Positions 1 to 18,399 of a stretch of 28,590 nt of DNA are shown one piece after another. Both the position numbers and the translations under genes were made by a program. The first letter of the stretch is position 1. Each line of letters begins with the position of its first letter. Below the pieces are notes generated by a model. That model did no database searches, had not been told where the DNA came from, and was given only the letters and a program-made list of their open reading frames with translations. The DNA is from a virus, in the IMG/VR virus record IMGVR_UViG_3300020200_000137, positions 1 to 28,590 of that record; one strand, written 5' to 3'.

Positions 1-1
1 C

Positions 2-247: not shown

Positions 248-343
248 CGCGTACGTCTTCGAGCGCTTGCGCCGGGACGCGATCTCGCATAGACCTCGCC
301 TCCATGCGGAGTGGGTGCAGGCGGAAGCGCAGGCGGAGTGAGC

Positions 344-2962: not shown

Positions 2963-4908
2963 AGCCCGCGAGAGAGTACGTCAGTGGCCCGGTGCCGACC
3001 GACATCTGCCTGAAGCGCGTGCCGTCGCTCGGCCTGATCGACGCGCTGATCGCGCGCTCGGTCGCCGTCTCGGAGAGCGACCCCGATACGCGCGTGCTGT
3101 CGCGCGACGACGAGCGCCCGCTCATCCACAAGCCGCTCGCGGTCCGCTACTCGGGCAAGCATCCGGAGTCGAGCGCGGATCGCACCGTGGTCCGCTTCGT
3201 CGTGTCGTCCGGCGAGGAAGCGCGCGACGACAAGGACTTGCTGATCGAGGGCATCGACTTCACCGGCTACGACCTCAACCCCGTGTGGTTGTTCGCGCAC
3301 GATTGGGAAGGTCTGCCGATCGGTCGCTGCCTCGCGCGCCGGACGTACAAGCGCGGCTCGACCTACGAGTTGTGGAAGGACATCGAGTTCACGCCCGAAG
3401 ACCTGTACCCGTTCGGCTATCAGGTCGGGCAGATGCACGCGCGCGGCTTCCTGCGCGCCTGTAGCGGCGGCTGGATGGGGACGCGTATCCGCGTCGTGCG
3501 CGGCGCGAGCGGGCAGCCGGAGCGCATCCAGTACCTCGCGTCAGATTGGATGGAGACGAGTTCGTGCGCGGTCGGGATCGACAAGTACGCCGTGCAGGAG
3601 GCGGTCGCGCGCGGAGTTCTCAAGCCGGACGGAGTCGACCAGTTCGCGCGCGCGGCGCGCATCGCAGCGACGGGTGTCGCGTACGAGGTTCGCAGCATGG
3701 ATCGCACCGAAGGAGCAGAGCGAGCGTTCAAGCCGAACGAGAAGCGGACGCTCGTCGAGGAGCACGTCATGGATCACAATCCGATCGGCGAATGGAAGCA
3801 GCAGGCGCTCCGCGCGCTCGGCGGCGATACGCCCGAGACGCCGGAAGTCGCGGAGCCGACGCCGAGCGACGCGCCGGTCGAGACGCCGGTCGAGACGCCG
3901 GTCGAGCCGGAGGCGACTCCGGTCGAGCCGGAGCCGGAGGCCGCGCCGGTCGAGACGCCGCCGAGCGGCGAGCCGACCGACGACGACGCGACGACCGTGC
4001 GCGCCGCGCTCGGGATGCTCCGCCGCTTCGTCGCGGCGCAGGGCGACAACGTCGCTCTCCGTGGTCCCGTCTCGCAGGCCGTCGACTCCGCCGTCGACGC
4101 TCTGTACGCGAACGTCATGGTGCTTGCTCAGTGCGCCGAGGAGCTTCGCTGCTCCGCGTCGAGCGTCTTCTACGAGGGGCGCTCGGCCGACGACGCGCGG
4201 CGTGTCGTCCGCGCTCGGATGGACGCGGTCGCCGAGCGGATGTCGCTACTTGCGGCCGACCCGAGCGCGGTCGCGATGACCGACGCGTATCTGGAGCGCG
4301 CCGTCGTCCGTGCCGAGTCCGCGCTCGCGCGATCGGGCAACGCGCTCTCCGAGCTACGCGACGCGGTGTCGCTCTACGGCGATGCCGAAGGCGGCGTCGA
4401 GACGGTCGTCCGCGCTGGCAAGAAGATCTCCGCCGCTCGGCGCGAGCGGCTCTCGGGCGCGCAGGAGAAGCTGGCGGCTGCGGTCGACACGCTTCAGACC
4501 GCGATCACGACGTTGCAGGCGGTGCTCGACGAAGACCCGCCCGCGAAGAAGGACGACGAGGACGAGGAGGTCGAGCCGAAGGACGGCGAGGAGATCACGC
4601 CGGAGGAGGCCGAAGCCGCCGACGAGGCGGTCGGACGCGCCGCGCTCGACCAGCTTCTGACGCGCGCCGCGCGCCTGCTCGACCAGCGGATCGCCGAGCC
4701 GATCGCCGCGAAGGCGACCGCCATCGAGGCTCGCTTCGCCGAGATCGCGAAGCGGTCGTCGGCGGTCGTCGCGAGCGGCGACACGGAGGCCGTCGTCGCG
4801 CCGCCGGACGACGCAGCGGCGAAGCGTGTCGAGGCGATCGCGCAGCGCGCGGCGCGGTTCAAGATCCCCGGCGTGCTCCTGCCCGAGCACGCGCGCGTCC
4901 GCTCTTGA
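2959..4908 (+). CDS. HK97-type prohead protease fused to a scaffold-like helical domain
   Basis: The GTG start at 2959 overlaps the portal stop (GTGA) and follows GGAGGA at 2950-2955. The N-terminal 230 residues look like an HK97-family prohead protease (peptidase U35/S78 type): a G-I-D-F-T-G-Y-D-L-N-P-V-W-L-F-A-H core, and S-G-G-W after a small-residue segment. H114 and S169 are plausible catalytic residues by position, which is inferred and not proven. A Pro/Glu/Val/Thr-rich linker (about 295-335) follows. The remaining 300 residues are mostly helical and charged, including RAGKKISAARRERLSGAQEK, a segment often seen in protease/scaffold proteins, and an acidic stretch near 535-555. At 649 aa it is roughly three times a bare protease. 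The downstream half probably scaffolds the shell and is then self-cleaved. It lies directly upstream of the capsid gene. Confidence 0.82.
   Translation: MKPAREYVSGPVPTDICLKRVPSLGLIDALIARSVAVSESDPDTRVLSRDDERPLIHKPLAVRYSGKHPESSADRTVVRFVVSSGEEARDDKDLLIEGIDFTGYDLNPVWLFAHDWEGLPIGRCLARRTYKRGSTYELWKDIEFTPEDLYPFGYQVGQMHARGFLRACSGGWMGTRIRVVRGASGQPERIQYLASDWMETSSCAVGIDKYAVQEAVARGVLKPDGVDQFARAARIAATGVAYEVRSMDRTEGAERAFKPNEKRTLVEEHVMDHNPIGEWKQQALRALGGDTPETPEVAEPTPSDAPVETPVETPVEPEATPVEPEPEAAPVETPPSGEPTDDDATTVRAALGMLRRFVAAQGDNVALRGPVSQAVDSAVDALYANVMVLAQCAEELRCSASSVFYEGRSADDARRVVRARMDAVAERMSLLAADPSAVAMTDAYLERAVVRAESALARSGNALSELRDAVSLYGDAEGGVETVVRAGKKISAARRERLSGAQEKLAAAVDTLQTAITTLQAVLDEDPPAKKDDEDEEVEPKDGEEITPEEAEAADEAVGRAALDQLLTRAARLLDQRIAEPIAAKATAIEARFAEIAKRSSAVVASGDTEAVVAPPDDAAAKRVEAIAQRAARFKIPGVLLPEHARVRS
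3874..3963 (+). repeat. In-frame P-V-E-T/P repeat in the protease-scaffold linker
   Basis: A 12-nt unit (ccggtcgagacg and variants) is repeated and encodes the low-complexity string PVETPVETPVEP followed by related units. It sits between the protease and helical halves of the protein, as a flexible linker. Such a tract could change length by slippage. It is seen directly in the sequence. Confidence 0.8.
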
Positions 4909-5165
4909 TCGGAGCGGAGCATCGGTGGTAAGGGGCGACAGGTTCGATGGTCGATGGGTGGTGGAGTTGCCACGCGGCAACTCGCCGGACGGCGCACGGA
5001 GTCGAGCACGGCTCGACAGACACCGCGCGCAGAGACGTACGGCGAGACGGCGCGGCAACGATGCGGACTCCGTCGATGCGGCTGTGACGATACTGGGCTG
5101 ACGACTTGATCTCGCGCGCGACTCGCGCGTCTGGATCACGAACGACAGAGAGAAGGGAAGTCACA
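4909..5165 (+). promoter_or_regulatory. 257-nt leader before the capsid gene, with two perfect hairpins
   Basis: No credible gene lies in this gap, which is long for this packed cassette. It holds two perfect inverted repeats. One is GAGTTGCC/GGCAACTC at 4964-4971 and 4976-4983 (loop ACGC). The other is GTCGAGC/GCTCGAC at 5001-5007 and 5011-5017 (loop ACG). Neither is followed by a T-run, so they are not textbook terminators. A weak -10-like GATACT lies at 5089-5094 without a good -35. The most likely role is an mRNA leader or a processing or regulatory site for the highly expressed capsid gene. That role is inferred from position only. Confidence 0.5.
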
Positions 5166-6491
5166 ATGGCCGCAGGAACCGCGCCCGCGAACGCGGGCAA
5201 CGTCGTCGTCAAGGCGGAGGGCGACCTCCACCCGATGATCGGAATCGCCGAGCGCATGGTCGACTATCTCGACGGCCAGATGCCCGCCGTCGAAGCGCTC
5301 GCCAAGCAGGGCGTCGAGGCCGCGCAGGAAGCGCAGAAGGAACTCGTCGCGCAGCGCTCGCTCATCACCGCGCTGGAGAACCGGCTCCGCGAGCAGGACG
5401 CGAAGCAGGACGACAAGCACTTCACCGGCAACTCGCCGTTCGAGCTTCAGGTCTACCGCGCCGTCGGCGAGGTCATCACCGACTCGTGGAAGGCGTTCCG
5501 CTCGGGCTACCGCAACATCCCCGAGAAGTACCGGAACACGAAGCGCGCCGCCGACCAGTACGAGGAGTCGGACACCCTCGGCGGCATCACCGTCCCGACG
5601 CTGACGTACGACAACGTCGCGTACTTCCAGCGTGAGCGTACGCTCGCTCGGCAGCTGTGCTTCGTGCTGCCGATGATGAGCGACAAGGTCGACGTTCCGG
5701 CCGTGACGAGCGGGACGCCGTCGGCGTACTACGTCTCCAACGGCTCGGCTCCCGGCAACAACTCGCCGATCACGTTCGTCGCGACGAAGCAGCTGGTCAG
5801 CAAGACGCTGATGGCCGTGAACATCGTCGAGGGCGAACTCGTCGAGGACACGGTCATGAACTACAGCGCCTTCTGGGCGCAGGTCTTCCTCGACTCGTTC
5901 TCGCTCAAGGAGAACCTCGCGGTCTTCTCGTCGACCGCGAACGATCCGGACGCGGCGACCAGCGCGTTCACGGGCGCGGTGCAGGCCGTCACGACGGCGG
6001 GCACGAACATCGTCACGACCTCGTCGTCGCACTTCTCCTCGGTGTCGTACGACAACCTCGTCGCCGTGCAGAACACGATCGACGCGAACGCGCGCGAGGG
6101 CGCGTGCTGGGTGATGAACAAGGCGGCGTTCCGCTACATTCAGGCACTCCGGACGACGGACGGATACCCGATCCTCTCGTCGTCGTGGACCGGCAACATC
6201 CCCGGCGCGAACCCGGTGCCGAATCCGGCGGTCGGTCGGCCGACGACTCTGCTCGGTGATCCGTGCTACATCACGGAGGCGATGCCGAGCGGCGTCAGCG
6301 TCTCGGGCAAGCACCTCGTCCTGTACGGCAACTTCGCCAAGGGTCACTTCTTCGGCGACCGGAAGCAGATGGCGATTCAGTGGAGCAGCGAGGCTGCGTT
6401 CACGGCTGGCGCTCTCGTGATGCGCGCCCGTGAGCGGTTCGCCGCGCTGAACGTCCTGACGGACGGCTTCGCGACGATCAAGACCGCGTAA
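5166..6491 (+). CDS. Major capsid protein, HK97 fold
   Basis: This 441-aa protein forms the icosahedral shell. The first 100 or so residues include a charged helical stretch (about 50-80) comparable to the HK97 delta domain that guides assembly and is then removed by the protease. From about residue 135 the HK97 pattern is clear: an S-D-T-L-G-G-I-T-V-P start to the mature-type domain, a long beta-rich middle, then AVGRPTTLLGDPCYITEAMP and GNFAKGHFFGDRKQMAIQWS near the end. Glycine-rich G-R-P-T-T-L-L-G motifs of this kind are typical of HK97-type capsid proteins. ATG 5166 is chosen because AAGGGAAG at 5153-5160 precedes it. An in-frame TTG at 5106 lacks a site. It follows the protease and precedes a strong hairpin. 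Confidence 0.9.
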   Translation: MAAGTAPANAGNVVVKAEGDLHPMIGIAERMVDYLDGQMPAVEALAKQGVEAAQEAQKELVAQRSLITALENRLREQDAKQDDKHFTGNSPFELQVYRAVGEVITDSWKAFRSGYRNIPEKYRNTKRAADQYEESDTLGGITVPTLTYDNVAYFQRERTLARQLCFVLPMMSDKVDVPAVTSGTPSAYYVSNGSAPGNNSPITFVATKQLVSKTLMAVNIVEGELVEDTVMNYSAFWAQVFLDSFSLKENLAVFSSTANDPDAATSAFTGAVQAVTTAGTNIVTTSSSHFSSVSYDNLVAVQNTIDANAREGACWVMNKAAFRYIQALRTTDGYPILSSSWTGNIPGANPVPNPAVGRPTTLLGDPCYITEAMPSGVSVSGKHLVLYGNFAKGHFFGDRKQMAIQWSSEAAFTAGALVMRARERFAALNVLTDGFATIKTA

Positions 6492-6512
6492 GCGGCGGCG
6501 GGGTTGGGGGGA

Positions 6513-6548
6513 GGAGCGCGGAGAGTGCGACGGCGCTCTCCGCGCTCC
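6513..6548 (+). terminator. 13-bp perfect hairpin after the capsid gene
   Basis: GGAGCGCGGAGAG (6513-6525) pairs perfectly with CTCTCCGCGCTCC (6536-6548) around a 10-nt loop. It begins 21 nt after the capsid stop. No T-tract follows, so it may be a rho-independent-like stop of the kind used in GC-rich genomes, an attenuator, or a 3' end stabiliser for capsid mRNA. Its core stem recurs after the major tail gene. Confidence 0.6.
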
Positions 6549-6568
6549 GCGCTTGGAGAGGAGGGGCG

Positions 6569-6817
6569 ATGCACCGTGTTCGAGTGAACCGCGAGATCAG
6601 CACCTATGTCGGAACGCTGATGCCGGGGTACGAGTACCCGGTACCCGACTTCGAGTACGAGCGGCTCGCGCGCATCGGCGCTCTCGTCGTAGACGAGCGT
6701 GCCGTCAGCGCGGCCGAGCGCACGGCTTCGTTGATCCCCGACGAGGAGATCGACGCGGTCGCGCGCGTAGGAGTCAAGGTCAACAGGATGGCGCGCGGGT
6801 CGACGGCGGCTCGCTGA
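6569..6817 (+). CDS. Small protein of unknown function after the capsid gene
   Basis: This 82-aa protein starts at ATG 6569 with GGAGGGG just upstream (within 6556-6565), a very strong ribosome binding site. The product is MHRVRVNREISTYVGTLMPG followed by a Y/E/P-rich segment and a short charged C-terminus. It has no signal peptide, membrane segment, cysteine or recognisable catalytic motif. Placed right behind the capsid protein, it could be a small head-associated or assembly protein, but no family is recognised. Third-base GC bias matches its neighbours and it is a probable real gene. A decoration protein would be a possible alternative, but the length is short and nothing in the sequence demonstrates it. 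Confidence 0.7.
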   Translation: MHRVRVNREISTYVGTLMPGYEYPVPDFEYERLARIGALVVDERAVSAAERTASLIPDEEIDAVARVGVKVNRMARGSTAAR

Positions 6818-6864
6818 CGCTCGAAGCGTGACGCGCGACGGCGCGCGTCCGGAGGTAAGGTCGT

Positions 6865-7890
6865 ATGCGCGTCTGCTGGGCGATGCACCGAGCGGTGATC
6901 TTCGACAGCCACGCGGTCGGCTACACCTCCTCGTCTGTCGCGCTTCTCGCCGCGCTCCGTGCGAGCGGCCGAGTCGAGATCGTCGACGACGCGCAGGACG
7001 CCGACGTGGTCGTCCACTACTGCCACCCGAGGAACTTCGTTCCGGTCGACGGCAAGCGGAACGTCCTGTTCACGATGTACGAACTCGATCCGCCGCCGCC
7101 CGAGTTCGCGGCTGCGAGTCGCGTAGCCGACGCGGTGCTGACGCCGTCGGCGTACTCGGCGCGTCTGCTCCGGATGGGAATGAACCGCGAGACGCCGCTC
7201 GTCGTCGTCCCGCTCGGCTTCGACCCGTCGGTCTGGACGCTGCCGACCGGGCCGCGTGCGTGGGACAGCGCGGAGCCGTTCACGTTCCTCTACGTCGGCG
7301 CGCTCAACGACAGGAAAGGCACGCATCTCATCATGCGCGCGTTCGAGCGGTTCGACGGCGTCCCCGGCGTACGGCTCGTGATGAAGATCTCCGGCACTGG
7401 CGACGCAACGCGACGCCGCGTCGTCGAGCGCAACGGCGTGATCTACGACGACCGCGCGCTCCCGGCCGAGGCGCTCCGCGTTCTCTACCGCCGCGCGCAC
7501 GCGTTCGTCTTCCCGACGCTCGGCGAAGGCTTCGGTCTGACGCCGCTCGAAGCTGCGGCCGTCGGTCTGCCGCTCATCGTCTCGGCGGGCGGCGCGATCG
7601 GCGAGTTCCTCGACCAGCGGCTAGTCGCGGCGGCGCTGCCGACGCGGCGTCACGCGTTGCAGGTCGGCGACGACGAATCCGTGAAGTACGGCTGGCGCGT
7701 CGATCCGGACGCTCTGAGCGCAGCGATGCTGGACGTGGTCCGGAACTACCGCCCTGCCGCGCGGAACGCGCTCCGGCTCGCGCGGCGCGTTCACGAGGGA
7801 TGGACGTACGCGCACGCGGCCGACCGGCTCGCGCTGGCCTTGACGCGTCTCGCGGAGGATCGCCGATGGCTACCTCGACGAGCGGCGTGA
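6865..7890 (+). CDS. Glycosyltransferase, GT-B fold, GT4-like (copy 1)
   Basis: This 341-aa protein would transfer a sugar from an activated nucleotide donor to an acceptor. The C-terminal Rossmann half is clear: FTFLYVGALNDRKGTHLIMR opens it, and GEGFGLTPLEAAAVGLPLIV holds the E-x7-E pair (E221 and E229) that contacts the donor in GT4-type enzymes. The N-terminal half includes RNVLFTMYE and a VLTPSAYSARLL segment. There is no signal peptide or membrane segment, so it acts in the cytoplasm. ATG 6865 follows GGAGGTAAGG at 6851-6860. It lies between capsid and fibre-like genes, so a virion or fibre protein is the most economical acceptor. That is inference; lipid or DNA acceptors cannot be ruled out. 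A clear paralog occurs at 15371-16462. Confidence 0.85.
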   Translation: MRVCWAMHRAVIFDSHAVGYTSSSVALLAALRASGRVEIVDDAQDADVVVHYCHPRNFVPVDGKRNVLFTMYELDPPPPEFAAASRVADAVLTPSAYSARLLRMGMNRETPLVVVPLGFDPSVWTLPTGPRAWDSAEPFTFLYVGALNDRKGTHLIMRAFERFDGVPGVRLVMKISGTGDATRRRVVERNGVIYDDRALPAEALRVLYRRAHAFVFPTLGEGFGLTPLEAAAVGLPLIVSAGGAIGEFLDQRLVAAALPTRRHALQVGDDESVKYGWRVDPDALSAAMLDVVRNYRPAARNALRLARRVHEGWTYAHAADRLALALTRLAEDRRWLPRRAA

Positions 7891-7894
7891 CGCC

Positions 7895-8491
7895 GTGCCG
7901 ACCGGCGCGTCTTCAGTTGGTTCGGGAGCGAGTCGAACCTCGCGCGTCGACGACGGCGCAAGCTCCGTGGCTGGCGTCGATCGGCGTGACGATCTCCGCT
8001 CTGCTGTCGACTCTGTTCTCGCACGTACGTCCGCGATCGACCTCGGCGCGTCGTTCGTCGCGCGCATCGTTGACCGTGGTGGGCTCTGGATCTACGAGCC
8101 GCCGACCGCGCTCGGACAGAAGGTCGTCCTGATGTTCTCGACGGTGCTGAACCTCGGCGCGGGACAGACCGTGTTTCTCGGTGCGGGCGGGATCTCGACG
8201 GACGAGAACGACGTGCTTCTGGCGATGCCCGCCGGAACGGCGCTCGAACTGGTGGTCACGTCGAACGTAGCTCCCGGCGCGGGCTCGATCGTCTGCACGC
8301 TCCGGAAGGAGCAAGTCGATACGCTCGTGGTCGTGACTCTTACGGGCTCGGGTGCGGCGAACCGGAAGGGAAGCTCCGCGATCTCGACCGTCTTCGCCGC
8401 GAAGGACTGGCTTTCAATGCGGCTGCAAAGCTCGGGCGGTGCTCCGGCGGCGATCGTCAACGTCGCGCTGAAGTACCAGTTCGCGACGTGA
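7895..8491 (+). CDS. Beta-rich virion-type protein; start or frame uncertain
   Basis: This frame gives 198 residues from GTG 7895, 4 nt past the glycosyltransferase stop. The last 130 residues are rich in beta-type sequence, with FSTVLNLGAGQTVFLGAGG and a final D-W-L-S-M-R-L-Q-S-S-G-G-A-P-A-A-I-V segment. This resembles the jelly-roll-like end domains of phage fibre or decoration proteins; the resemblance is by pattern only. GTG 7895 has no ribosome binding site. A strong one (GGAGG at 7854-7858) stands 7 nt before ATG 7866, which opens a different frame. A single missing base near 7893 would join ATG 7866 to this frame and produce MATSTSGVTPVPTG... The N-terminal 40 residues are therefore doubtful, while the C-terminal part looks real. 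Confidence 0.6.
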   Translation: MPTGASSVGSGASRTSRVDDGASSVAGVDRRDDLRSAVDSVLARTSAIDLGASFVARIVDRGGLWIYEPPTALGQKVVLMFSTVLNLGAGQTVFLGAGGISTDENDVLLAMPAGTALELVVTSNVAPGAGSIVCTLRKEQVDTLVVVTLTGSGAANRKGSSAISTVFAAKDWLSMRLQSSGGAPAAIVNVALKYQFAT

Positions 8492-8507: not shown

Positions 8508-9596
8508 ATGAACCGCAAGGGAAGGGGCGCGCGCGCGGTGGTCGCGCGTCTCGCCGTTCTGGCCGCGCTGCTGATCGTTCCGATCGAGGCGAGCGCGGCG
8601 ATGAAATTCCTCGCACCACTCACCGACAAGGGCGACGGCAGCGTCGAATGTACGGACTGCTGCACGGCGGGCGCGGCTCTGACGACGGACTCGCTGGTCG
8701 TCGGCGCGGCGAACAACCGCACGATGAAAACGCTCGCGAACCACGGCAGCAGCGACGAGCGATACCTGACCTCGTCGAGCGACGTGAACCCGCCCGCGTG
8801 GCGCGTGCCGCTGCTGATCGACCTCGGCGCGGCTTCGACGACCGCCGCGAACCTGTCGTCGGTCATGCAGGACGCGAGCGAAACGGGCACCGCGAACAAG
8901 CTGGTCTGGGACACGGGGCCGACGATCTCGGCTCCAGTGTTCACGGGCGCGGCGAGCTTCTCGGGCATCACCGGCTCGGTTAGCTGGGCGGGCACGACCG
9001 CGCCGATGACGTTCCCGGCGAACACGTTCGACGACTTCACGGACTTCAAGGCCGACATCAAGACGGGCGGCTCGAACGGCACGAAGTTCGTCACGGCGGG
9101 GAACGTCACGCCGGGCGCGAACAACTGCGCGAAGTGGAACGCGAACGGTACGCTCGAAGATCACGGCTCGGCCTGCGGCGGCGGGACGGGCATCGTCCCG
9201 CGCATCGACGTGTCGCCGCTCACGCAGGTCACCGTCTCGACCACGCCGCTCTACTGCGGCCTCGACGGCTCGTGCTCCGCGACGGCGAACGGCGCGGACG
9301 TGCAGACACCGCTGCTCGATACCGGCAGCTTCACGAAGCTAGAGTGTCAGGCAACGGCGGCGACCGGGCAGGCGATCACCGTCAAGCTCGGGCTCGCGGC
9401 GACGTGCGGCGGTGCTTTGAACGTCACGACCAAGGCGCAAACCGTGATGAGCGCGACTCAGTGGACGGCGGGCACGCCGACGGGGACGACCTCATGGACG
9501 AACGGTCAGTGCGTGGCGTTCGAGTTGACCACGGCGTCGGGCACGTCGAACAAGGTCACGATCCGCTGCTCGATGTCGCAGAGCGCTGGCACCTGA
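8508..9596 (+). CDS. Exported, Cys-containing tail-fibre-like protein
   Basis: This 362-aa protein starts at ATG 8508 after AAAGGAG (8494-8500). Its N-terminus is a textbook Sec signal: basic residues (MNRKGRGARAVVAR), a hydrophobic core (LAVLAALLIV) and an ASA-A cleavage site near residue 26. The rest is low-complexity, Thr/Ser/Gly/Ala-rich and fibre-like, for example ETGTANKLVWDTGPTISAP, a pattern common in phage tail fibres. Cysteines occur in several clusters (CTDCC near the start; pairs at the end), which suits an oxidising compartment. A signal peptide is unexpected for a protein meant to assemble in the cytoplasm. It opens the accessory block and its stop overlaps the next start by one base. 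No enzymatic motif is seen. Confidence 0.75.
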   Translation: MNRKGRGARAVVARLAVLAALLIVPIEASAAMKFLAPLTDKGDGSVECTDCCTAGAALTTDSLVVGAANNRTMKTLANHGSSDERYLTSSSDVNPPAWRVPLLIDLGAASTTAANLSSVMQDASETGTANKLVWDTGPTISAPVFTGAASFSGITGSVSWAGTTAPMTFPANTFDDFTDFKADIKTGGSNGTKFVTAGNVTPGANNCAKWNANGTLEDHGSACGGGTGIVPRIDVSPLTQVTVSTTPLYCGLDGSCSATANGADVQTPLLDTGSFTKLECQATAATGQAITVKLGLAATCGGALNVTTKAQTVMSATQWTAGTPTGTTSWTNGQCVAFELTTASGTSNKVTIRCSMSQSAGT

Positions 9597-12223
9597 TGAC
9601 TCGCGCCTTTCGCATCATCGCGGTCGCGCTCGCGGGGCTCGCGCTCGCGGGCGTAGCCGCGCCTGCCTACGCGGCCATCGCCGACGGGAACGGCATCACG
9701 ATGGAGCAGGGGAAGGCGTCGTTGTACGACGGCACCATCGCGCTGCACCCTAGCTGGGCTGCGCCTGCGAGCCAGTACCCGCTCGTCAATTTCTACACGT
9801 CGAGCACTTTGCAGACCGGCTCAGATGGAACCGGGATCATCGGGCTTAACTTGACGCCGAAGTTCACGGTGCCGATGATCTCGGTCGGCACTGGCGTGTT
9901 CTGGGGAGGGAAGCTCAAGAGGGTCGGCGCACCGAACAGCACCCTCGCGGACATCGTGTACGCCACCAGCGCGGTGCAGTACGGGGTCGAGGCGACTAGC
10001 GTCGCGAACGCGGTCTGCATCGGCGGCGCGCAGGCGGGCAACCAATGTACAGTCAATGGCGACTGTGACAGCGGCAACTGCGACGGCGGGAGCCCGTTGT
10101 ATCCAGACGCCTTCTACAATTACGGCACGGCCACGCAGCTACGCAACGTCGGGCGACAGAAACAATGGGTTCCCATCGGCTTCCTCGATACGTACGCGAT
10201 GGGGGCGAAGGCGTCGTGCTCGGGCGGCTCGAACGACGACACGATCTGCACGAAAGATTCAATGTGCAAGGTCTGCGTCGGCGGCTCGTCGCAGGGTCAA
10301 GAATGTACCGGGGACGGCAACTGTCCGGGGTCGACCTGCAATCTCAACGGCCAGTGCGTCGCGGGCAAGCTGTACCAGAGGGCGTGGTACGGCGGCTACG
10401 TGCGCCCGAGCATGGTCGAGCAAGCAAGGACGTGCAAGGGCGGCGCGAGTGCTGGCAACGCCTGCACGGGGGACGGCGACTGTCCGTCAAGCACGTGCCT
10501 CTACCCGCGCTTCCAGCTTGACGGTTACGACGGATTCGTCGTCGATGACATCGGGACGCTGACGGGTACGCCCGAGATCGGCTACTACGCCGGGTTCACC
10601 TGCGACCCGAACAGCGCAGGCTGGCCGGATGCGGGGACCACGGGCGCGACGCGCTGGTGCGTGCGGTCACGGCACGCGAACATCAAGAGCTTCTTCGTCG
10701 GGGGCATCCGCATCGGCGACGAGACGGTCCCGACCGACAAGCTGGAGATCAACGGCGACCTCGCCTTCGACAAGGGCTCGGGTACGAGCGGGACGATCTA
10801 CGGCTCGCGCAACAGCAACGGATCGCTGACGCTGAACGCGACGACCAGCGCGACGGGCAGCGCGCCAGAGATCAGGGTCAACTCGAACCTGACGACGGTG
10901 TCGGGCGTCTCTACTTGGCTCAAGATGGGCGCGGCCACGACGACGTTCGACAACGGCTTGTCGTCCATCTCGGCGCTCAAGATGGACGGGACGATCCTGA
11001 GTGCCGCGAACGACGCGGCGGGCTTTCAAGGCGCGATCTTCCAATGGTTCGCTCCGACCATCAGGTCGTCGCCGACGGACACGAATCGGACCACGGGCTC
11101 GTGGTACACGACATACGCTGCGCCGATCTTCCAAGTGGACAACGACACGGCGACGCTGCCGCCGACGTTCACCGTCAACCTCTGGCGGCCAATCGCGAAC
11201 GTCCCGCAGTTGAGCCGCAAGACGCCGGGGAACAACGGCTCTATCGTCGTCACCGAGTCCACCGGACTTTTCGACAGACCGGTCATCAACACGGGCGGCA
11301 CGATCACGACTCGTCGCGGAGTCTGGATGCAGGCACCGGGAGGCAGCGGCGCGCAGACGAACGTGATCGGCCTCGACGTGGACGACCAGACGGCGACGAC
11401 GCTGGTGGCGGGGCTGCGCTCGACGGTCACCTCGGGCAGCGGGAAGTGGACGCTGCTCTCGACCGGCACCGCAGCCTCGCAGCACTACGGCGTGGTCAAC
11501 GTCGGCGGCGGCACGGCGGCGGGGGAAATTCGCATCCTCGAACCGTCTGGCGGCGGCACGTCCTACGCGAGCCTCGTCGCGCCCGCGCTCGCGGCGAACA
11601 CCGCATACACGCTGCCCGTGGACGACGGCGAAGCTGGAGAGCTTCTGATGACCAACGGCAGCGGCACGCTGTCGTGGGAGCCGCGTGGCGACGGCGTGGT
11701 TGCGGACCTGCCCGCTGCCGCGTGCGTCGGCGGCACCGGCTACACCTTCTGGGATCTACCCGCGACTGCGCCCGCCACGACCGCGTGTGTCGGAACGGAC
11801 GGAACGAACACCTACGCGCGCGGAGTGCTCGCCTTCCCTGACGGCTCGACGCTCAACGCAAAGACCAGCATCATGCTCCCGAGCGTATGGTCGGGCGCTC
11901 TGTACGCCGACATCTATTGGGGCGCGAGCAACACGTCGGCGGCGAACGTGGTCTGGCAGATCACGGGCGCGTGCTCGGGCGACACCGAGACTCACGACCC
12001 GACGCTCTCATCGACGGCGAACACGGTGACCGATGCAGTGCTCACGTCAACTGCAAACTTTACGAACAAGGCGACGATCACGCTGTCGAACGCAACGAAC
12101 AACCCGTTGAGCGGCTGCGTGGCGGGCGAGCAGTTCCTCATGCGGCTGTTCCGCGACCCCACGGGGAGCGACACCTCCACGGCGACCGCCAACCTGTACC
12201 GCGTGGTGCTGCGGCAGTCGTAA
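9596..12223 (+). CDS. Large exported Cys-rich fibre-like protein
   Basis: This 875-aa product begins at ATG 9596, sharing a base with the previous stop (TGATG). It has a clear Sec signal peptide (I-I-A-V-A-L-A-G-L-A-L-A-G-V-A, cleavage near AYA-A). Residues about 140-305 hold four Cys-rich repeats of the C-x-G-G-x-x-x-G-x-x-C-T-x-D-x-D-C-x-x-x-x-C type. From about 360 the sequence is fibre-like: F-F-V-G-G-I-R-I-G-D...T-D-K-L-E-I-N-G-D-L is a typical tail-fibre phrase. GEIRILEPSGGGTSYASLVA, followed by an A-N-T-A-Y-T-L-P segment, is another. The last 150 residues form a beta-sandwich-like end domain. Codon third positions are less strictly G/C than in the head genes, hinting at separate origin. 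It may be a fibre, an exported adhesin, or both. Confidence 0.78.
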   Translation: MTRAFRIIAVALAGLALAGVAAPAYAAIADGNGITMEQGKASLYDGTIALHPSWAAPASQYPLVNFYTSSTLQTGSDGTGIIGLNLTPKFTVPMISVGTGVFWGGKLKRVGAPNSTLADIVYATSAVQYGVEATSVANAVCIGGAQAGNQCTVNGDCDSGNCDGGSPLYPDAFYNYGTATQLRNVGRQKQWVPIGFLDTYAMGAKASCSGGSNDDTICTKDSMCKVCVGGSSQGQECTGDGNCPGSTCNLNGQCVAGKLYQRAWYGGYVRPSMVEQARTCKGGASAGNACTGDGDCPSSTCLYPRFQLDGYDGFVVDDIGTLTGTPEIGYYAGFTCDPNSAGWPDAGTTGATRWCVRSRHANIKSFFVGGIRIGDETVPTDKLEINGDLAFDKGSGTSGTIYGSRNSNGSLTLNATTSATGSAPEIRVNSNLTTVSGVSTWLKMGAATTTFDNGLSSISALKMDGTILSAANDAAGFQGAIFQWFAPTIRSSPTDTNRTTGSWYTTYAAPIFQVDNDTATLPPTFTVNLWRPIANVPQLSRKTPGNNGSIVVTESTGLFDRPVINTGGTITTRRGVWMQAPGGSGAQTNVIGLDVDDQTATTLVAGLRSTVTSGSGKWTLLSTGTAASQHYGVVNVGGGTAAGEIRILEPSGGGTSYASLVAPALAANTAYTLPVDDGEAGELLMTNGSGTLSWEPRGDGVVADLPAAACVGGTGYTFWDLPATAPATTACVGTDGTNTYARGVLAFPDGSTLNAKTSIMLPSVWSGALYADIYWGASNTSAANVVWQITGACSGDTETHDPTLSSTANTVTDAVLTSTANFTNKATITLSNATNNPLSGCVAGEQFLMRLFRDPTGSDTSTATANLYRVVLRQS
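10014..10502 (+). repeat. Four Cys-rich protein repeats in the exported fibre-like protein
   Basis: Four in-frame copies of a Cys motif lie at about 10014-10085, 10219-10265, 10273-10341 and 10431-10500. The best copies read CVGGSSQGQECTGDGNCPG and CKGGASAGNACTGDGDCPSS. The second copy is partial. Such repeats are known from secreted proteins of some high-GC Gram-negative lineages and presumably form disulphides. Confidence 0.75.
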
Positions 12224-12750
12224 TGAACGCCAATCGCCTCCTGCTGCTGATCTTCGCGTGGGCCGTGCTCGGCACGGCGAGCGAGCGTCTCCTGCGCGAA
12301 GCCGGTGCGGTCACGCCCGTGCGTCACCCGGTCGGCTTCGTGACGCCGACACCGTCGCCGTCGCCGTCGCCGCGCCCGACCAGCACCGTACTCAGCCCAG
12401 CATCTGCGTGCGGCAATCCCGAGAGATGGTTCGGTACGGGTAACTGCGTCAATAGCTACGCAAGTGCTCAAATCATCATCGTGGAGGACATGACCATTAC
12501 GCGCATCGTCTGCGGACAGTCTGCCGACCCCTCGTGCGAGGTCACGTTCAACGTCACGCACGGGTTGGGAACGGAGAACGGTGACAACTGCGTGTCGGTC
12601 AATCAGGCAAGCTGCGACAAGAGCCTCGGGACGCCCATCGACCTCAACGTCGGTGTAACTGGAGCGTATGCAATTCGCGCTCGCGACACCGGAGCCAATT
12701 GCACCAATACAATCGGTGCCACCTGCACCGTGCATTACACGGTGCCGTAG
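12223..12750 (+). CDS. Small exported protein with Pro/Ser-rich linker
   Basis: This 175-aa protein begins at ATG 12223, overlapping the previous stop (TAATG). Residues 5-19 (RLLLLIFAWAVLGTA) are hydrophobic and form a signal peptide or membrane anchor. A T-P-T-P-S-P-S-P-S-P-R-P-T linker follows at about residues 41-53. The C-terminal 115 residues have eight or more cysteines and beta-type sequence and look like a small disulphide-bonded domain. No family is recognised. This stretch uses A/T in the third position more often than the head genes, so recent transfer is possible. It is tightly coupled to the large fibre-like gene upstream, which suggests partner function. Confidence 0.68.
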   Translation: MNANRLLLLIFAWAVLGTASERLLREAGAVTPVRHPVGFVTPTPSPSPSPRPTSTVLSPASACGNPERWFGTGNCVNSYASAQIIIVEDMTITRIVCGQSADPSCEVTFNVTHGLGTENGDNCVSVNQASCDKSLGTPIDLNVGVTGAYAIRARDTGANCTNTIGATCTVHYTVP

Positions 12751-12768
12751 ACTTGAGGGAGATTTGTG

Positions 12769-13047
12769 ATGCGACTTGGGATGATCTTCCTGTTGGCGAC
12801 GGTCAGCGGAGCGCAGGCACAGGAGGTGCCGTCGCCTACCCCGACACCGCTCAAGCCGTGCGTCGAAGCGAGTGCTTACGAACCGTGCGTGCAGGTCGTG
12901 CTCCCGGCGCAGCGACTCAGCGAGCGGCTCGACCGGCTAGAGGCATCCACGCAGGAAGCGGTCAATCAGCTTGCCGCGATGATCGAGTCGATTCGCAGCG
13001 GACAGACGCCAATCGCGACGCCCGCGCCGAAGGAGCAGAAGAGGTGA
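12769..13047 (+). CDS. Small exported protein with signal peptide and helix
   Basis: ATG 12769 follows GAGGGAGA (12755-12762); an in-frame GTG at 12766 sits too close to that site. The 92-aa product has a signal peptide (MRLGMIFLLATVSGAQA, cleavage before QE), a short S-P-T-P-T-P linker, two cysteines, and a helical segment RLSERLDRLEASTQEAVNQL that could form a coiled coil. Size and layout recall spanin-like proteins, but there is no lipobox Cys and no lysis gene nearby, so that call is not made. Its stop overlaps the next start (GTGA). The function is unknown. Confidence 0.6.
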   Translation: MRLGMIFLLATVSGAQAQEVPSPTPTPLKPCVEASAYEPCVQVVLPAQRLSERLDRLEASTQEAVNQLAAMIESIRSGQTPIATPAPKEQKR

Positions 13048-13259
13048 TCGTCGCAGCGGCGCTACTGGCGACGTGGTTGACGTGGGGCGCAAAGCCGACC
13101 CCGCGCCCGACCGCGAGCCCGACCGCGAGTCCGACGCCGCGCAGCGAGCTACAACAGGCGCTCTGCGAGAAGGGTTTCGCGCAGGGTAGTCCGGCGACAA
13201 TCGCGTCGCTGTGCGCGGGTATGTGCGAAGGGATGTGCCCTCCGAAGGAGAAGCAATGA
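13044..13259 (+). CDS. Small hydrophobic-start, Pro-rich, Cys-containing protein
   Basis: GTG 13044 overlaps the previous stop and follows AAGGAG (13030-13035). The 71-aa product starts with a short hydrophobic stretch (MIVAAALLATWLTWGA), then a T-P-R-P-T-A-S-P-T-A-S-P-T-P-R linker, and ends with a Cys-rich tail (CEKGF, CAGMCEGMCPP). The hydrophobic part is brief and may be a weak signal or anchor. Its stop overlaps the next start by ATGA, so it is translationally coupled to the connector gene. No family is recognised. It shares the signal-linker-Cys plan of its two upstream neighbours. Confidence 0.55.
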   Translation: MIVAAALLATWLTWGAKPTPRPTASPTASPTPRSELQQALCEKGFAQGSPATIASLCAGMCEGMCPPKEKQ

Positions 13260-14251
13260 GCACGACGGTCGGACGCTATCAGGTCGGCGCGACCGGCCGT
13301 TGGTCGGGCGTGCTGGAGCGCGAGGACGGCGCGAAGGTCGGCGTCGCCAACATCACGGCCGCGACGCTGACGCTCGTCGACGCGGCGACCGGGCAGTACA
13401 TCCGTGGTGCGTCCGTGACGCCGCAGAACGTCTGGACGCCGGGAGGCGCGCTGACGAACAACGTCGCCTTCGCGGACGCGACCGACTCGAACGGAACGCC
13501 GATCACGACGATCGGCTGGGACGTGCTCGCGACCGACGTGGCGCTCAAGACGGCGACGAACGCGCGCGAGGATCACGTCGCGACGTTCGTCATCACGTAC
13601 GCGCAGGACGGTATCTCGAAGACGATCCGACACGTCCATCGTTTACGCTGCGTCGACGCGCCCGCGCTCTGCACGTATGACGACGTGCTCGCGTCGTTGC
13701 CCGAACTCGACGAGCCGACGGCGCGGCCGATCATCGAGGACGCGATCGAAGCGTTCTCCGCGCTCGCCGAGAAGATCACGATGCGTCGGTTCCGCAAGAG
13801 TACGGTGGCGGCACCGACCGTCGAGATCCTCTCGATCCGGCAGCACCAGCAGATCATTCAGCTTCAGCGTTATCCGATCGAGTCGGTCGTCTCCGTCGAG
13901 TACGACGATGCGGGCGTCTTCTCCGGATCGAATCCGTACGACGCGAGCGAGTACGGGATCGACGCCGCGCTCGGACAAATCGAGCGCCGCTACATCCCGT
14001 GGTTCCACGGCGTCGCGAACACGAAGGTCACGTACGTCGGCGGACTCTACCGAGAGACGGGCGGCGTCGACGCCGATCTCCGCTGGGCGGCGGTACAGCA
14101 GGTCGCGCACTGGTATCGCTTCCGCGACAAGCTCGGCGTCGTCAGCGTGAGCGTGCCCGGTTCGACCGTGACGGTATACTCGCAGAGCGGTCCGCTCATC
14201 CCGGCCGTGCAGAAGATCGTCGATCACTACCGCCGACCTCGGCACTGGTAG
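13256..14251 (+). CDS. Head-tail connector: Ig-like domain fused to gp6-like adaptor
   Basis: This 331-aa protein starts at ATG 13256 after GGAG at 13247-13250. Residues about 5-130 look like an Ig-like beta domain found in phage head proteins (VANITAATLTLVDAATGQYI; an E-D-H-V-A-T-F-V-I-T-Y strand and a final H-V-H-R-L strand). Residues about 140-331 match the gp6-like head-tail adaptor plan: an opening helix TYDDVLASLPELDEPTARPI, a middle Y-P-I-E-S-V-V-S-V-E-Y strand, VTYVGGLYRE, and helices AAVQQVAHWYRFRDKLGV and AVQKIVDHYRR. Adaptors of this type bind below the portal to close the head and offer the tail-docking site. Both halves read without a break, so the fusion is genuine in this sequence. 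Confidence 0.78.
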   Translation: MSTTVGRYQVGATGRWSGVLEREDGAKVGVANITAATLTLVDAATGQYIRGASVTPQNVWTPGGALTNNVAFADATDSNGTPITTIGWDVLATDVALKTATNAREDHVATFVITYAQDGISKTIRHVHRLRCVDAPALCTYDDVLASLPELDEPTARPIIEDAIEAFSALAEKITMRRFRKSTVAAPTVEILSIRQHQQIIQLQRYPIESVVSVEYDDAGVFSGSNPYDASEYGIDAALGQIERRYIPWFHGVANTKVTYVGGLYRETGGVDADLRWAAVQQVAHWYRFRDKLGVVSVSVPGSTVTVYSQSGPLIPAVQKIVDHYRRPRHW

Positions 14252-14880: not shown

Positions 14881-15374
14881 TGGCGGCTCCGACAGCAGTC
14901 CGGCAAGCGGTGGTCGACAAGCTCCGCACGCTTCTCTCGGCGATCGTCTCGCCGACGTACCTGTTCAACGTCGGACCGACGCGCGTCCACATGAAGGAGG
15001 TCATCAACGCGACGACCGCGTGCCCCGCGCTGATGGTCGTGCAGCGGACGGAAGCGATCCAGTGGGCCTCGGTCGGTCGGCACCTCGAACGGACGCTGGC
15101 TGTTCAGGTCGGCTTCCTCGCGGAGTACAACGGTCCCGATCCAGACGAGACGGCGGTTGCGTTCATGGCGGAGATCGAGCGCGCGGTCGGCTTTCAGCAC
15201 TTCATCACCGTCACCGACTACGACACCGGACTCGTCACGGCGCAGCATCCCATCGCGTTCTACGTGCGCGGCAACGCGATCAACGTCGGCGAGCCGCTCG
15301 AAGGGCGCGTGTACGGACAGATCGACTACGAGGTGCAGTACTTCACGTCGGTCCTCGACCCGCGAAAGCTGTGA
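14880..15374 (+). CDS. Tail terminator-like protein
   Basis: ATG 14880 overlaps the previous stop and follows GGGAGGG (14869-14875). The 164-aa product has the length and layout of tail terminators: a helix (AVRQAVVDKLRTLLSAIV), a strand with A-C-P-A-L-M-V-V, HLERTLAVQVGFLAEYNG, then an F-M-A-E-I-E-R-A-V helix and a final IDYEVQYFTSVLDPRKL strand. Terminators cap the tail tube and dock it to the neck. The family call rests on order and pattern, because sequence conservation in this family is low. Confidence 0.65.
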   Translation: MAAPTAVRQAVVDKLRTLLSAIVSPTYLFNVGPTRVHMKEVINATTACPALMVVQRTEAIQWASVGRHLERTLAVQVGFLAEYNGPDPDETAVAFMAEIERAVGFQHFITVTDYDTGLVTAQHPIAFYVRGNAINVGEPLEGRVYGQIDYEVQYFTSVLDPRKL

Positions 15375-16462
15375 GCGTGGATCTCGTCTGGGCTGCGGAG
15401 ACGACCGGCAGCGAGGTCGCGAACTACATCGGCTATGCGTCCGCGAACCGCGCGCTCGCCGACGCGCTCCGCCGACAAGGCGCGCGCCTGTGGCGGCGCG
15501 GCGAGCAGCCCGCGTCGTGTCGGACCGCCGTCCACTTCATGTTCCCCGAGCGCTTCGTCCCCGTCGAGGGCGTACGTGACAACGTCCTGTTCACGATGTT
15601 CGAGTCGCACGAAGCTGAAGCGATGATGACGTACTTCGCTCCGGCGTTCTCGCGCTGCTCGCTCGTGGTGACGCCGTCGGCGTGGTGCTCGAAGCTGTTC
15701 GCGCACTACACGTCGACGCCGGTCGTCACCTGTCCGCTCGGCGTCGACGCGGAGAACTTCCCGTACAAGCGTCGTCGCTGGACGCCGGGGAATGAGCCGT
15801 TCGTCTGGTTGTACGTCGGCGCGCCGAACCGACGGAAGTGGACGATCTTGCCGGAGATCTGGGAGCACTTCCTAGCGACGCTCCCTCCCGGCTTCGCGCA
15901 CCTCTACATCAAGACGACCGGCGCGCTCGGCGATGTCGCGCTGCGACGGATGGCGCAGAACGCGCGCGAGCCGATCGAGCGGTTCGACTTCCCGACGGGC
16001 TCGATGTTCTTCTCGTCGCAGGTCACGGTCGACACGCGACTGCTGCCGCGCGCGGAACTCGCGGCGGAGGTCTACCATCGCGCGCACGGCCAGATCTTCT
16101 TGCACTGTGGCGAGGGCTGGGGATTGACCGGCCTCGAAGGCATGGCGACCGGATTGCCGCTCGTCGTCTCGGACTCGACGGGGACGCGCGAGTTCGCGAC
16201 GCGCGAGACGGCGTACCCGGTCGGCGTGACGGTCCGAAACGTCCACAGCGAGGCGACGAACGACGCGACGGGAGAAGTGATCTCGGTCGAGAACCGCGTC
16301 CCGTGGCCGAACGATACCGACGCGGTCGACGCGCTCGGGCGCGTCATGCTCGACTACCGCCGAGCGCAGATCGTCGGCCGTCGCGCGTCCGAGCGAGCGC
16401 GCGAGTTCCCGTGGTCAAGAGCGGCATCGACGCTGCTTGCGCTTCTCCGCCAGACGGGGTAG
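15371..16462 (+). CDS. Glycosyltransferase, GT-B fold, GT4-like (copy 2)
   Basis: This 363-aa protein starts at GTG 15371 (GTGA overlap with the terminator stop); a second GTG at 15377 is an alternative. It shares blocks with the copy at 6865: F-V-P-V-(E/D)-G-x-R-x-N-V-L-F-T-M-(F/Y)-E, V-x-T-P-S-A, P-L-G-x-D and a L-Y-V-G-A-x-N-x-R-K stretch. GEGWGLTGLEGMATGLPLVV carries the E-x7-E pair (E248 and E256). No signal peptide or membrane segment is seen. Sequence divergence between the copies suggests different sugars or acceptors. It lies between the neck genes and the tail tube gene, so a tail or fibre acceptor is likely, though unproven. Confidence 0.85.
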   Translation: MSVDLVWAAETTGSEVANYIGYASANRALADALRRQGARLWRRGEQPASCRTAVHFMFPERFVPVEGVRDNVLFTMFESHEAEAMMTYFAPAFSRCSLVVTPSAWCSKLFAHYTSTPVVTCPLGVDAENFPYKRRRWTPGNEPFVWLYVGAPNRRKWTILPEIWEHFLATLPPGFAHLYIKTTGALGDVALRRMAQNAREPIERFDFPTGSMFFSSQVTVDTRLLPRAELAAEVYHRAHGQIFLHCGEGWGLTGLEGMATGLPLVVSDSTGTREFATRETAYPVGVTVRNVHSEATNDATGEVISVENRVPWPNDTDAVDALGRVMLDYRRAQIVGRRASERAREFPWSRAASTLLALLRQTG

Positions 16463-16476
16463 TGCCTCGGGCAGAG

Positions 16477-16507
16477 CGGGCTGGGTCGTAGCTGCACCGG
16501 GCTGGGT
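16477..16507 (+). repeat. Direct repeat CGGGCTGGGT, 21 bp period, before the tail tube gene
   Basis: Identical 10-mers lie at 16477-16486 and 16498-16507 in the 105-nt gap between the second glycosyltransferase and the major tail protein. The period of 21 bp is two helical turns, so a protein dimer could bind both from one face. No clear -35/-10 pair is seen. It may be chance in GC-rich DNA. Confidence 0.35.
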
Positions 16508-16567
16508 TGGTTGTGAAGTGGAGCCGCTGACGCGAGACGCGCGGTAGGCTTCGAGGAGGAAGTCCCC

Positions 16568-17578
16568 GTGCCTTACGTTGCACCGAACCTCTCGTTCAAC
16601 ACCGGGCTCGTCTTCTCGCAGGAGACGGCGATCGGCACAGCGGTCGCTTACGGCACGCTGAACACCGCGTCGTGGGCGGGGGCCGAGAAGCGGTACGCCG
16701 GTCCCGCGCTGCTCGACGGCGCGTTCACTCCGGCGCAGCAGGACGTGAAGCTCATCACGACCAACCCCGTGCGTCAGTCGATGACGAAGCGGAAGGACAT
16801 CGTCGGCCGGTCGATCGTCACGATCACCTTCGACGCGTTCCTTCAGGGGAGCGGCGGAACCGGCGGACAGATGCCGTGGTTCGTGCCCCTGATCGAGTCG
16901 TGCGGGCACTCGATCGCGAGCAACTCCAGCGGCGGCTCGTCGTCGTGGGTGCTGACGCCGACGAACACGCCGCCGTCGCTCACGTTCTACCACCACTCGG
17001 GCGGCGTCCGACAGCTGATTACCGGAGCGTTCGGGACGTGCAGCTTCAAGTTCCCGGCGGGCGATGCGCCGCGCGTCAGCTTCACGTTCAAGGGCGTCTG
17101 GAACGCGCCAACCGACGTGGCCTTCCCGACCCTGACCAACCCCGGCTTCTACGCGTCGCAGGTCCAGAGCGAGGCGTTCGTCCTGAACGCGCTCAACGCG
17201 CTGATCGTCCCCGAGGTCAGTCTCGATCTCGCGGCCGAAGCGCAGGAGCGCGAGGACATCAACTCCGCGCTCGGCTTCTACGGCTTCTACCACTGCGACC
17301 GGAATCCGAAGGTGATGGCGAAGATCGAGCGCGCGTCGACGCTCGCGCTCGGCTTGGACCCGTACACGCTCCAGCAGAACGCGAGCGACTGCGACCTCTC
17401 GTGGACGCACGGCTCGGCCGCGAGCGGATCGCAGGCGCTGTTCGCCGTTCCCGACTCGCAGCTGACCACCGTGAACGAGGAAGACCGGAACAAGCGGAAG
17501 GTCTTCAACTGCACATTCAAGGGTCAGGGCACGAACGAGAACGCCGACTACAAGATCACGTTCAAGGAGAAGATCTAA
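16568..17578 (+). CDS. Major tail (tube) protein
   Basis: GTG 16568 follows GAGGAGGA (16553-16560) at good spacing. The 336-aa product has a tail-tube-type opening, F-S-Q-E-T-A-I-G-T-A-V-A-Y-G-T, then a beta-rich body with RSIVTITFDAFLQGSGGTGG and PRVSFTFKGVWNAPTD, and a short basic end. Tube proteins stack as hexameric rings around the tape measure. The position, after the terminator and before the chaperone pair and tape measure, strongly supports this. The long body (about 330 residues) suggests an added domain beyond the minimal tube fold. The strong ribosome site and following hairpin fit a highly expressed gene. Confidence 0.8.
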   Translation: MPYVAPNLSFNTGLVFSQETAIGTAVAYGTLNTASWAGAEKRYAGPALLDGAFTPAQQDVKLITTNPVRQSMTKRKDIVGRSIVTITFDAFLQGSGGTGGQMPWFVPLIESCGHSIASNSSGGSSSWVLTPTNTPPSLTFYHHSGGVRQLITGAFGTCSFKFPAGDAPRVSFTFKGVWNAPTDVAFPTLTNPGFYASQVQSEAFVLNALNALIVPEVSLDLAAEAQEREDINSALGFYGFYHCDRNPKVMAKIERASTLALGLDPYTLQQNASDCDLSWTHGSAASGSQALFAVPDSQLTTVNEEDRNKRKVFNCTFKGQGTNENADYKITFKEKI

Positions 17579-17586
17579 GCCGTGCG

Positions 17587-17626
17587 GCGCGGAGAGTCGC
17601 GACGCGAGTGTCTCGTCTCTCCGCGC
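17587..17626 (+). terminator. 10-bp perfect hairpin after the major tail gene, sharing the capsid stem
   Basis: GCGCGGAGAG (17587-17596) pairs with CTCTCCGCGC (17617-17626) around a 20-nt loop that itself contains short self-complementary pieces. It starts 9 nt after the tail tube stop. The stem sequence is the same as in the hairpin after the capsid gene. No T-tract follows. Confidence 0.55.
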
Positions 17627-17766
17627 TCTCGGTTGAGCGTCCGATGGCAAGCGAACGCCCGATGCTTCCGCCTGCACCCGCTCCGCATAGCGGCGTTCGT
17701 GTACGAATGGGCGTACGCGGACCGGCAAGGGTTGCACGCGCGGCTCGCCATCGCCGCTCAAGCCAG

Positions 17767-17814
17767 CGGGAGGGGGGCGCGTCGGCGATAGGCGTCGGCG
17801 TCGTCCCCCTCCCG
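17767..17814 (+). other. Second hairpin in the tail tube/chaperone gap
   Basis: CGGGAGGGGG (17767-17776) pairs perfectly with CCCCCTCCCG (17805-17814) around a 28-nt loop holding two copies of a GCGTCGGCG unit. It sits in a 296-nt stretch (17579-17874) with no credible gene. A terminator, processing site or G-rich structure is possible. Confidence 0.45.
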
Positions 17815-17832
17815 TAGCTACTTCAGGGCTGA

Positions 17833-17851
17833 CCACGCGCCGTTCGCGTGG
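17833..17851 (+). promoter_or_regulatory. Short hairpin just upstream of the tail chaperone start
   Basis: CCACGCG (17833-17839) and CGCGTGG (17845-17851) pair around a 5-nt loop. It ends 24 nt before ATG 17875 and 9 nt before its AGGGAAA site, close enough to affect ribosome access. It is seen directly; the role is inferred. Confidence 0.35.
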
Positions 17852-17874
17852 CGACTGCGAAGGGAAAGAACACG

Positions 17875-18399
17875 ATGGCAAAGCAGGTCGAGAACTTCCT
17901 CCCGCCGGGACTCGCGCTCAAGAAGGTCGAGCGCGCGCCGCGATGGACGAATACGATCGCGCAGGCGCGGATCGACGCGCCCGTCTTCCGGATCAAGCTC
18001 GCGTATATGCCCTACCGTACGTTCCGCGACGCGGTCGTCGAGGCCGCGCAGCTTCGTCAGCGGAGCGGCGGATCGAACCCGGCGGAGACGGAGATGACCG
18101 CGATGCGGCCGATGCTCCAGAAGGTCGCGCTCGATTGGGAAGGCGCGACGCTGGAGAACATCAACGAGATCCTGCGCGGCGACCGCGTGATCCGTCCGTC
18201 CGACGAGTCGCCCGAGGCGCTCGAAGCGTTCGTCGAGAAGTACGTGACGAAGCAGGAGGAGTTCCCGTTCTCGATCGGGCTGTTCGTCTACATCTGGTTC
18301 AACTCGTATCCGGACAAGTTCCAGAACCCGGTGTTCTCGCTCCTTCAGGAGTGGGGCGACTCGATCGCGGCGGAGGTGGAGAGGGGAAAAGAAGACTGA
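17875..18399 (+). CDS. Tail assembly chaperone, short (gpG-like) product
   Basis: ATG 17875 follows AGGGAAA (17861-17867); an in-frame GTG at 17848 is less likely because it lies inside a hairpin arm. The 174-aa product is a mostly helical protein with WTNTIAQARIDAPVFRIKLA, a V-A-L-D-W-E-G...N-I-N-E-I-L segment, and an I-G-L-F-V-Y-I-W-F segment near the end. It lies between tube protein and tape measure, where lambda gpG-type chaperones are encoded. These coat the tape measure and recruit tube subunits. The last codons cross a G GGA AAA heptamer four codons before the stop, so a fraction of ribosomes should shift into the next frame. Confidence 0.82.
   Translation: MAKQVENFLPPGLALKKVERAPRWTNTIAQARIDAPVFRIKLAYMPYRTFRDAVVEAAQLRQRSGGSNPAETEMTAMRPMLQKVALDWEGATLENINEILRGDRVIRPSDESPEALEAFVEKYVTKQEEFPFSIGLFVYIWFNSYPDKFQNPVFSLLQEWGDSIAAEVERGKED
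18384..18390 (+). promoter_or_regulatory. -1 ribosomal slippage heptamer G GGA AAA
   Basis: In the chaperone frame the codons read AGG GGA AAA GAA GAC TGA. The heptamer GGGAAAA fits X-XXY-YYZ in the right phase, close to the lambda G/GT site (G GGA AAG). Slippage by -1 bypasses the TGA at 18397 and enters a frame open to 18872. Position at the end of a gpG-like gene, before the tape measure, is the classical context. Confidence 0.85.

Follow-up and report, generated by a model that had tools for sequence, protein, structure and literature searches.

Phage fibres are regarded as parts of the virion that are made in the cytoplasm. It is already known that virion operons can include genes for exported proteins, and that phages encode signal-bearing proteins of unknown function (PMC10367356). 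The exported phage lipoproteins Llp/Cor of T5 prevent secondary infection and also, as proposed, wasteful adsorption to fragments of lysed cells; Llp adjoins the RBP gene pb5, and other exclusion lipoproteins are located downstream of gpJ (PMC9586334). The late morphogenesis operon of lambda encodes Lom, which is exported and strongly expressed in the lytic cycle (PMC9836094), and PblB of S. pneumoniae is a tail-fibre-like phage protein with a predicted signal peptide which serves as a cell-surface adhesin (PMC4508584). In P. gingivalis phages, several proteins of unknown function are predicted to use the general secretion of the host (PMC10367356).

Here we describe a block of five consecutive genes (g1–g5, Table 1) within the virion operon of a linear virus sequence of 28.6 kb (the window), which shares some properties with each of these systems. 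Like Llp/Cor, the genes at this position (the slot) in the window and its relatives are predicted to specify phage-encoded exported proteins, but Llp/Cor are single small lipoproteins, whereas the slot encodes 3–6 mostly larger, fibre-modular, Cys-rich proteins (100–900 aa). Furthermore, the slot is located between capsid/GT (or orf198) and connector rather than beside gpJ/pb5, and a lipobox is absent from the sequences of g1–g5. Lom is likewise exported from a late operon and scores highly with the signal predictor used here, but represents one outer-membrane family (PF06316) at the tail end, which g1–g5 do not match. PblB shares the combination of fibre-like sequence and predicted signal, but is one tail protein, encoded by a temperate phage of Gram-positive bacteria, and its S. 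mitis form is freed by lysis and binds other cells. The P. gingivalis phage proteins were not reported as a conserved capsid–connector array of tail-fibre modules. The open-access papers searched described no array of exported fibre modules that occupies a fixed slot throughout a clade, and the original prediction of an undescribed system is fair for the whole array, but too broad with respect to exported proteins in virion operons as such.

Gene order around the block

From 5′ to 3′, the window contains the end of the terminase, the portal with a MuF-like fusion, a protease, MCP, GT_A, orf198 and g1–g5, followed by the connector, neck, tail terminator, GT_B, major tail protein, chaperones, tape measure and 2 distal genes, with part of these labels being assigned from position. 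The block lies between MCP and connector, and so does break the capsid-to-connector order as had been claimed. The coordinates of the five genes and their overlapping or close junctions were found to be exact on re-checking, with the g2 ATG overlapping the g1 stop (TGATG, 9594–9598), further overlaps at TAATG (12221–12225), GTGA (13044–13047, g4/g5) and ATGA (13256–13259, g5/connector), and a spacing of 18 nt between g3 and g4. Scans for promoters and terminators gave nothing beyond chance level. Horizontal acquisition of the block was considered and rejected: the codon usage of g1 and g2 fits that of the phage, while g3–g5 have a lower GC3 (0.77–0.79), as do two other genes of the window.

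Table 1. Features of the slot and its surroundings in the window (SP, signal-peptide score; a slash marks the predicted cleavage site)
Feature	Position	Strand	Length (aa)	SP	Description
MCP	5163-6491				
GT_A	6865..7890	+			GT4 glycosyltransferase left of the slot; PF20706, Pfam 6.7e-20; kept in relatives
orf198	7895..8491	+			Left edge of the slot; non-exported, Cys-poor beta protein; homologues at the same place in L021/L022
g1	8508..9596	+	362	5.35	Sec signal peptide, ASA/A at 30; C-terminal knob-like domain; 11 Cys
g2	9596..12223	+	875	4.67	Sec signal peptide, AYA/A at 26 or APA/Y at 24; 22 Cys
g3	12223..12750	+	175	3.94	Signal peptide; TPSPSPSP linker; beta-rich C-terminal domain with 8 Cys
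g4	12769..13047	+	92	3.96	Signal peptide, AQA/Q; Pro/Thr-rich, then helical stretch
g5	13044..13259	+	71	2.94 (sub-threshold)	N-terminal hydrophobic segment; Pro/Thr-rich linker; 4 Cys
Connector	13256..14251	+			Head-tail connector, right edge of the slot; phrog_442 (PHROG 442) 1.8e-18
GT_B	15371..16462	+			Second GT4 glycosyltransferase; PF20706 3.3e-7; kept in relatives

GT_A and GT_B are 38% identical, lie within the virion operon, and are both retained in the relatives and in a sister lineage described below; these two GT4 enzymes are likely to glycosylate virion or slot proteins. The portal gene (353–2962) has a fused C-terminal MuF-like domain, while the cave phage L012 (MW202897), which has a related portal, has two genes (portal 14908–17145, minor capsid 17334–18083). 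A small gene 5′ of the tape measure (18399–18872), abutting the preceding gene, has a Cys-rich CxxC start and 3.8% Cys, and possibly encodes a zinc-binding tail chaperone. A sister contig (L002, IMGVR_UViG_3300020214_001897) is 99.6% identical to the window, of which it covers 1–8052, ending just 5′ of the block; its upstream extension contains TerL in full, together with a PAPS-reductase-like reading frame.

Export signals and cysteine content

Signal peptides were scored using a simple home-made rule based on a charged n-region, a hydrophobic core and small residues at −3/−1, with a threshold of 3.6. In phage lambda the five top-scoring proteins were Rz, lom, bor, Rz1 and rexB, which are all exported or membrane proteins, and in six other phages only 3/98 virion-module genes reached 3.6. 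Within the window, g1–g4 scored 3.94–5.35 and the best gene outside the block 3.22. Sec-type or hydrophobic starts had been claimed for all five products, and this was borne out, with Sec-type signals in g1–g4, although the g3 cleavage site is less canonical, while g5 at 2.94 is weaker and shows a hydrophobic segment only, without positive charge and with a weak site, making it more anchor-like than a cleavable signal. Over four phages (the window and three relatives, see below), 17 of the 19 slot genes scored ≥3.6 versus none of 46 other virion genes (Fisher 9e-14; best-start rule applied alike to both groups, gene starts of the relatives called by hand, and slot genes not fully independent within a phage, with three L021 genes being paralogues). 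Conventional tail fibres and tailspikes, with which the slot genes of the relatives share modules (Gly_rich_2, LamG, pectate-lyase), differ in being made without a signal peptide.

The many cysteines noted in the original prediction were also present, as all five products contain 2.2–5.6% Cys versus 0–1.5% in other genes of the window except chapB (3.8%). In the four phages, the median was 2.55% for slot genes versus 0.62% (p=2.6e-6). The LamG domain (PF13385) occurs without a signal in the dist1 product of the window, which has 0.6% Cys, and with a signal in L025_c, which has 4% Cys, so that cysteine enrichment follows the signal rather than the fold. In g2, Cys-rich C-x(4)-D/N-C repeats occupy approximately aa 140–305, and the C-terminal half is fibre-like. 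Such motifs (CTGDGDC, CDVTADC, CSTEADC) are shared between predicted exported proteins from different members of the clade, namely g2 (aa 140–305), L025_b and L025_a.

The hydrophobic N-termini could alternatively be uncleaved anchors, or be removed by the prohead protease, so that no secretion takes place; g5 and L022_e are indeed more anchor-like than cleavable, and in P. gingivalis phages, capsid proteins that start with signal-like sequences have been proposed to be cleaved by this protease (PMC10367356). In most slot products an A-x-A type site follows the hydrophobic stretch at a suitable distance, the products are enriched in cysteines, and none of them is a capsid protein, which makes this explanation very unlikely. 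The related suggestion of fibres held by an uncleaved N-terminal anchor is therefore less probable for most members on the basis of these sites, but could hold for g5. We consider the slot proteins very probably exported, with Sec likely to export the products, signal peptidase I to cleave most of them, and disulphides to form outside the cytoplasm.

No outer-membrane anchor was identified in g1–g4, and a spanin reading of g4/g5 was rejected since neither has a lipobox. Single-sequence AlphaFold models of the C-terminal domains of g1 and g3 had a pLDDT of 41–42 and were left unused, while comparing the profiles of orf198 and the g1 knob gave a probability of 6%. Elsewhere, a virion-module gene of Azospirillum phage Cd (L017:20803–21231), unrelated to the block-bearing clade, has a twin-arginine-like signal (TRRGILAG).

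Conservation of the slot and turnover of its modules

There are no close isolates, with portal and capsid matching phage records at ~25% identity only. Searches of IMG/VR with g1, g2, MCP, portal and connector gave nothing beyond L002, and the same was found for g1–g3 against phage records (g1 also at E≤10) and g2 against plasmids. No family match was obtained for g1–g3 in profile searches, including Pfam, PHROG and NCBIfam for g2, and these products are called fibre-like from their sequence and the homology of g1 only; against Pfam at E≤1, g1–g5 gave nothing but unrelated weak matches for g4. TerL recovered no contigs other than distant podovirus-like ones, whose virion genes are unrelated, the g2 Cys repeats had one weak match in a Woesearchaeota MAG which was not accepted as host evidence, and weak matches between g2 and picornavirus VP1 in the PDB (E 0.28) were attributed to chance.

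Using an alignment of GT_A and GT_B as bait yielded 19 further viral contigs. Three of these (L021, L022 and L025) share the portal, GT_A, connector and tail terminator with the window, with E-values down to 1e-101, as well as MCP in L022/L025 and orf198 in L021/L022 (8.8e-10 and 5.6e-14, respectively; both homologues without signal peptide or Cys enrichment). These relatives are divergent, with portals ~30% identical, and the connector is 35–38% identical in genomes G002, G003 and G004. The block recurs in all three as 3–6 tandem, mostly Cys-rich genes for predicted exported proteins 5′ of the connector: six in L021, including one lipoprotein (L021_a, 42 aa), which has the sole lipobox (LSAC), four plus one membrane protein in L022, and three in L025. 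In the window, G002 and G004 it lies between capsid/GT and connector; in G003 the capsid gene is located elsewhere, but the block keeps its position, with GT/orf198 on one side and the connector on the other. Together with the signals and cysteines, this recurrence supports the original proposal of exported fibre-like proteins suited to an oxidising compartment and possibly displayed at the surface.

In the portal tree, the four block-bearing phages form a single clade with 100/100 support; the clade also includes L035, a fragment almost identical to the L021 phage. A separate sister lineage (100/100) has the same GT4 adjoining the connector, but its slot lacks the signal-peptide block. Since the block-bearing phages form one clade at ~30% portal identity, the slot is ancient and has been retained, whereas the genes within it are exchanged. 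In the sister lineage, radical-SAM-like, sulphotransferase-like and extra GT4 genes (L024:4111–5567, L031:8982–9785 and L028:2973–9593) are present in place of exported fibres, making this region an accessory-gene hotspot.

The only recognisably shared member of the block is g1, which matches L021_b (1.7e-15), through L021_b L022_a (2.7e-10), and by alignment L025_a; invariant columns of this family include Cys207, 280, 300, 335 and 354. L021 (f) and L022 (d) have genes of similar size with signal peptides directly 5′ of the connector, which are counterparts of g4 by position alone. The slot genes of the relatives contain Gly_rich_2 (2.8e-9) and PHROG 863 (9.1e-10), Laminin_G_3 (3e-13), and the tail fibre PHROG 38058 (2.7e-7). 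As judged from these sequences, module content changes while position, predicted signals and cysteines persist.

One product, L025_b, is pectate-lyase-like (PL/RHGA PF12708 1.3e-5, just under the Pfam cut-off; tail-spike PHROG 7458 3.8e-6) and predicted to be exported. This may indicate that the slot encodes secreted enzymes and adhesins which remodel exopolysaccharide or biofilm around infected cells, aiding release and spread, and a GDSL-type gene in the slot of the cave phage L012 is in line with such a role. Within g1–g5, however, no enzyme family was matched, and we regard such a remodelling role as quite unlikely.

Possible roles of the slot proteins

The distal tail genes are retained in the near-complete 73 kb relative G004 (dist1 7.8e-49), which argues that the block is an addition and not a replaced receptor-binding apparatus. 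The same genome gave no match to an integrase or resolvase, favouring a role in the lytic stage. Lysogenic conversion, in which adhesins expressed from a prophage alter host attachment, has precedents in Lom and PblB and would fit the fibre-type adhesin modules; given this result for G004 and the packing of the genes within a late morphogenesis operon, it seems most improbable. Outside its slot, G004 encodes another predicted exported protein (L043:18151–19554, 467 aa) with a Pro/Thr-rich linker and a Cys-rich tail recalling g3/g5.

In the cave phage, the fibre-like genes at the slot have neither signals nor high Cys, a hint that virion parts can be encoded there. The slot products might thus be neck or head fibres that need disulphides, and that are exported, folded outside the cytoplasm and joined to the virion at or after lysis. 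The block adjoins the connector in a virion operon, its modules are those of tail fibres and tailspikes, and a short [DN]G.[IVL] motif downstream of the cleavage site, found post hoc in 7/12 large products (three of the 7 being paralogues) versus 7% of background windows, could be a common docking strand. A signal peptide would nevertheless take the protein away from the assembly site, the classical distal tail genes are still there, and we know of no tailed phage that matures structural proteins outside the cytoplasm, leaving virion appendages a doubtful explanation. In its most specific form, where the lineage builds disulphide-stabilised receptor-binding appendages by Sec export, periplasmic folding and oxidation, and attachment to the virion at lysis via the common N-terminal motif, we consider it unlikely.

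At the level of sequence, signal peptides and an enrichment in cysteine are established, as are the cistronic packing of the genes among virion genes and the retention of the slot within one clade; with respect to function, we lean slightly towards the slot proteins acting at the cell surface or on debris rather than within the virion. Our favoured, still tentative, explanation is that g1–g5 form one cassette of late-expressed exported proteins, derived from tail-fibre-type modules, which may mask receptors at the cell surface or on debris. It is suggested by the module types, the late operon, the lack of an integrase match and the retained distal tail genes in G004, and the precedents described above; specific receptor masking or superinfection exclusion, a plausible suggestion of the original prediction, is put forward by analogy and from module type, and may well prove not to be the function. 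Less surely, fibre-like knobs and lectins, joined in one relative by a depolymerase-like protein, would late in infection coat the dying cell or leave with it. Their targets, bound or trimmed, would be the surface polymers also recognised by the phage tail. Related phages could thereby be kept from superinfecting, and progeny from sticking to debris, comparable to the T5 exclusion lipoproteins. Turnover of modules among relatives would then track changing host surfaces, and g4/g5, like the genes at equivalent positions in the relatives, may anchor the whole set in the envelope.

The slot, together with its two flanking GT4 genes, provides a handle for finding further members, and phage lectins or spikes stabilised by disulphides would serve as reagents. 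For the phages themselves, the sequences indicate that a whole lineage probably sends fibre-like proteins out of the bacterial cytoplasm, so that a 'tail fibre' label based on the module alone would be wrong or incomplete for all of its members. With this array, a specific candidate is available either for masking of the surface late in the lytic cycle or for maturation of virion parts outside the cytoplasm.
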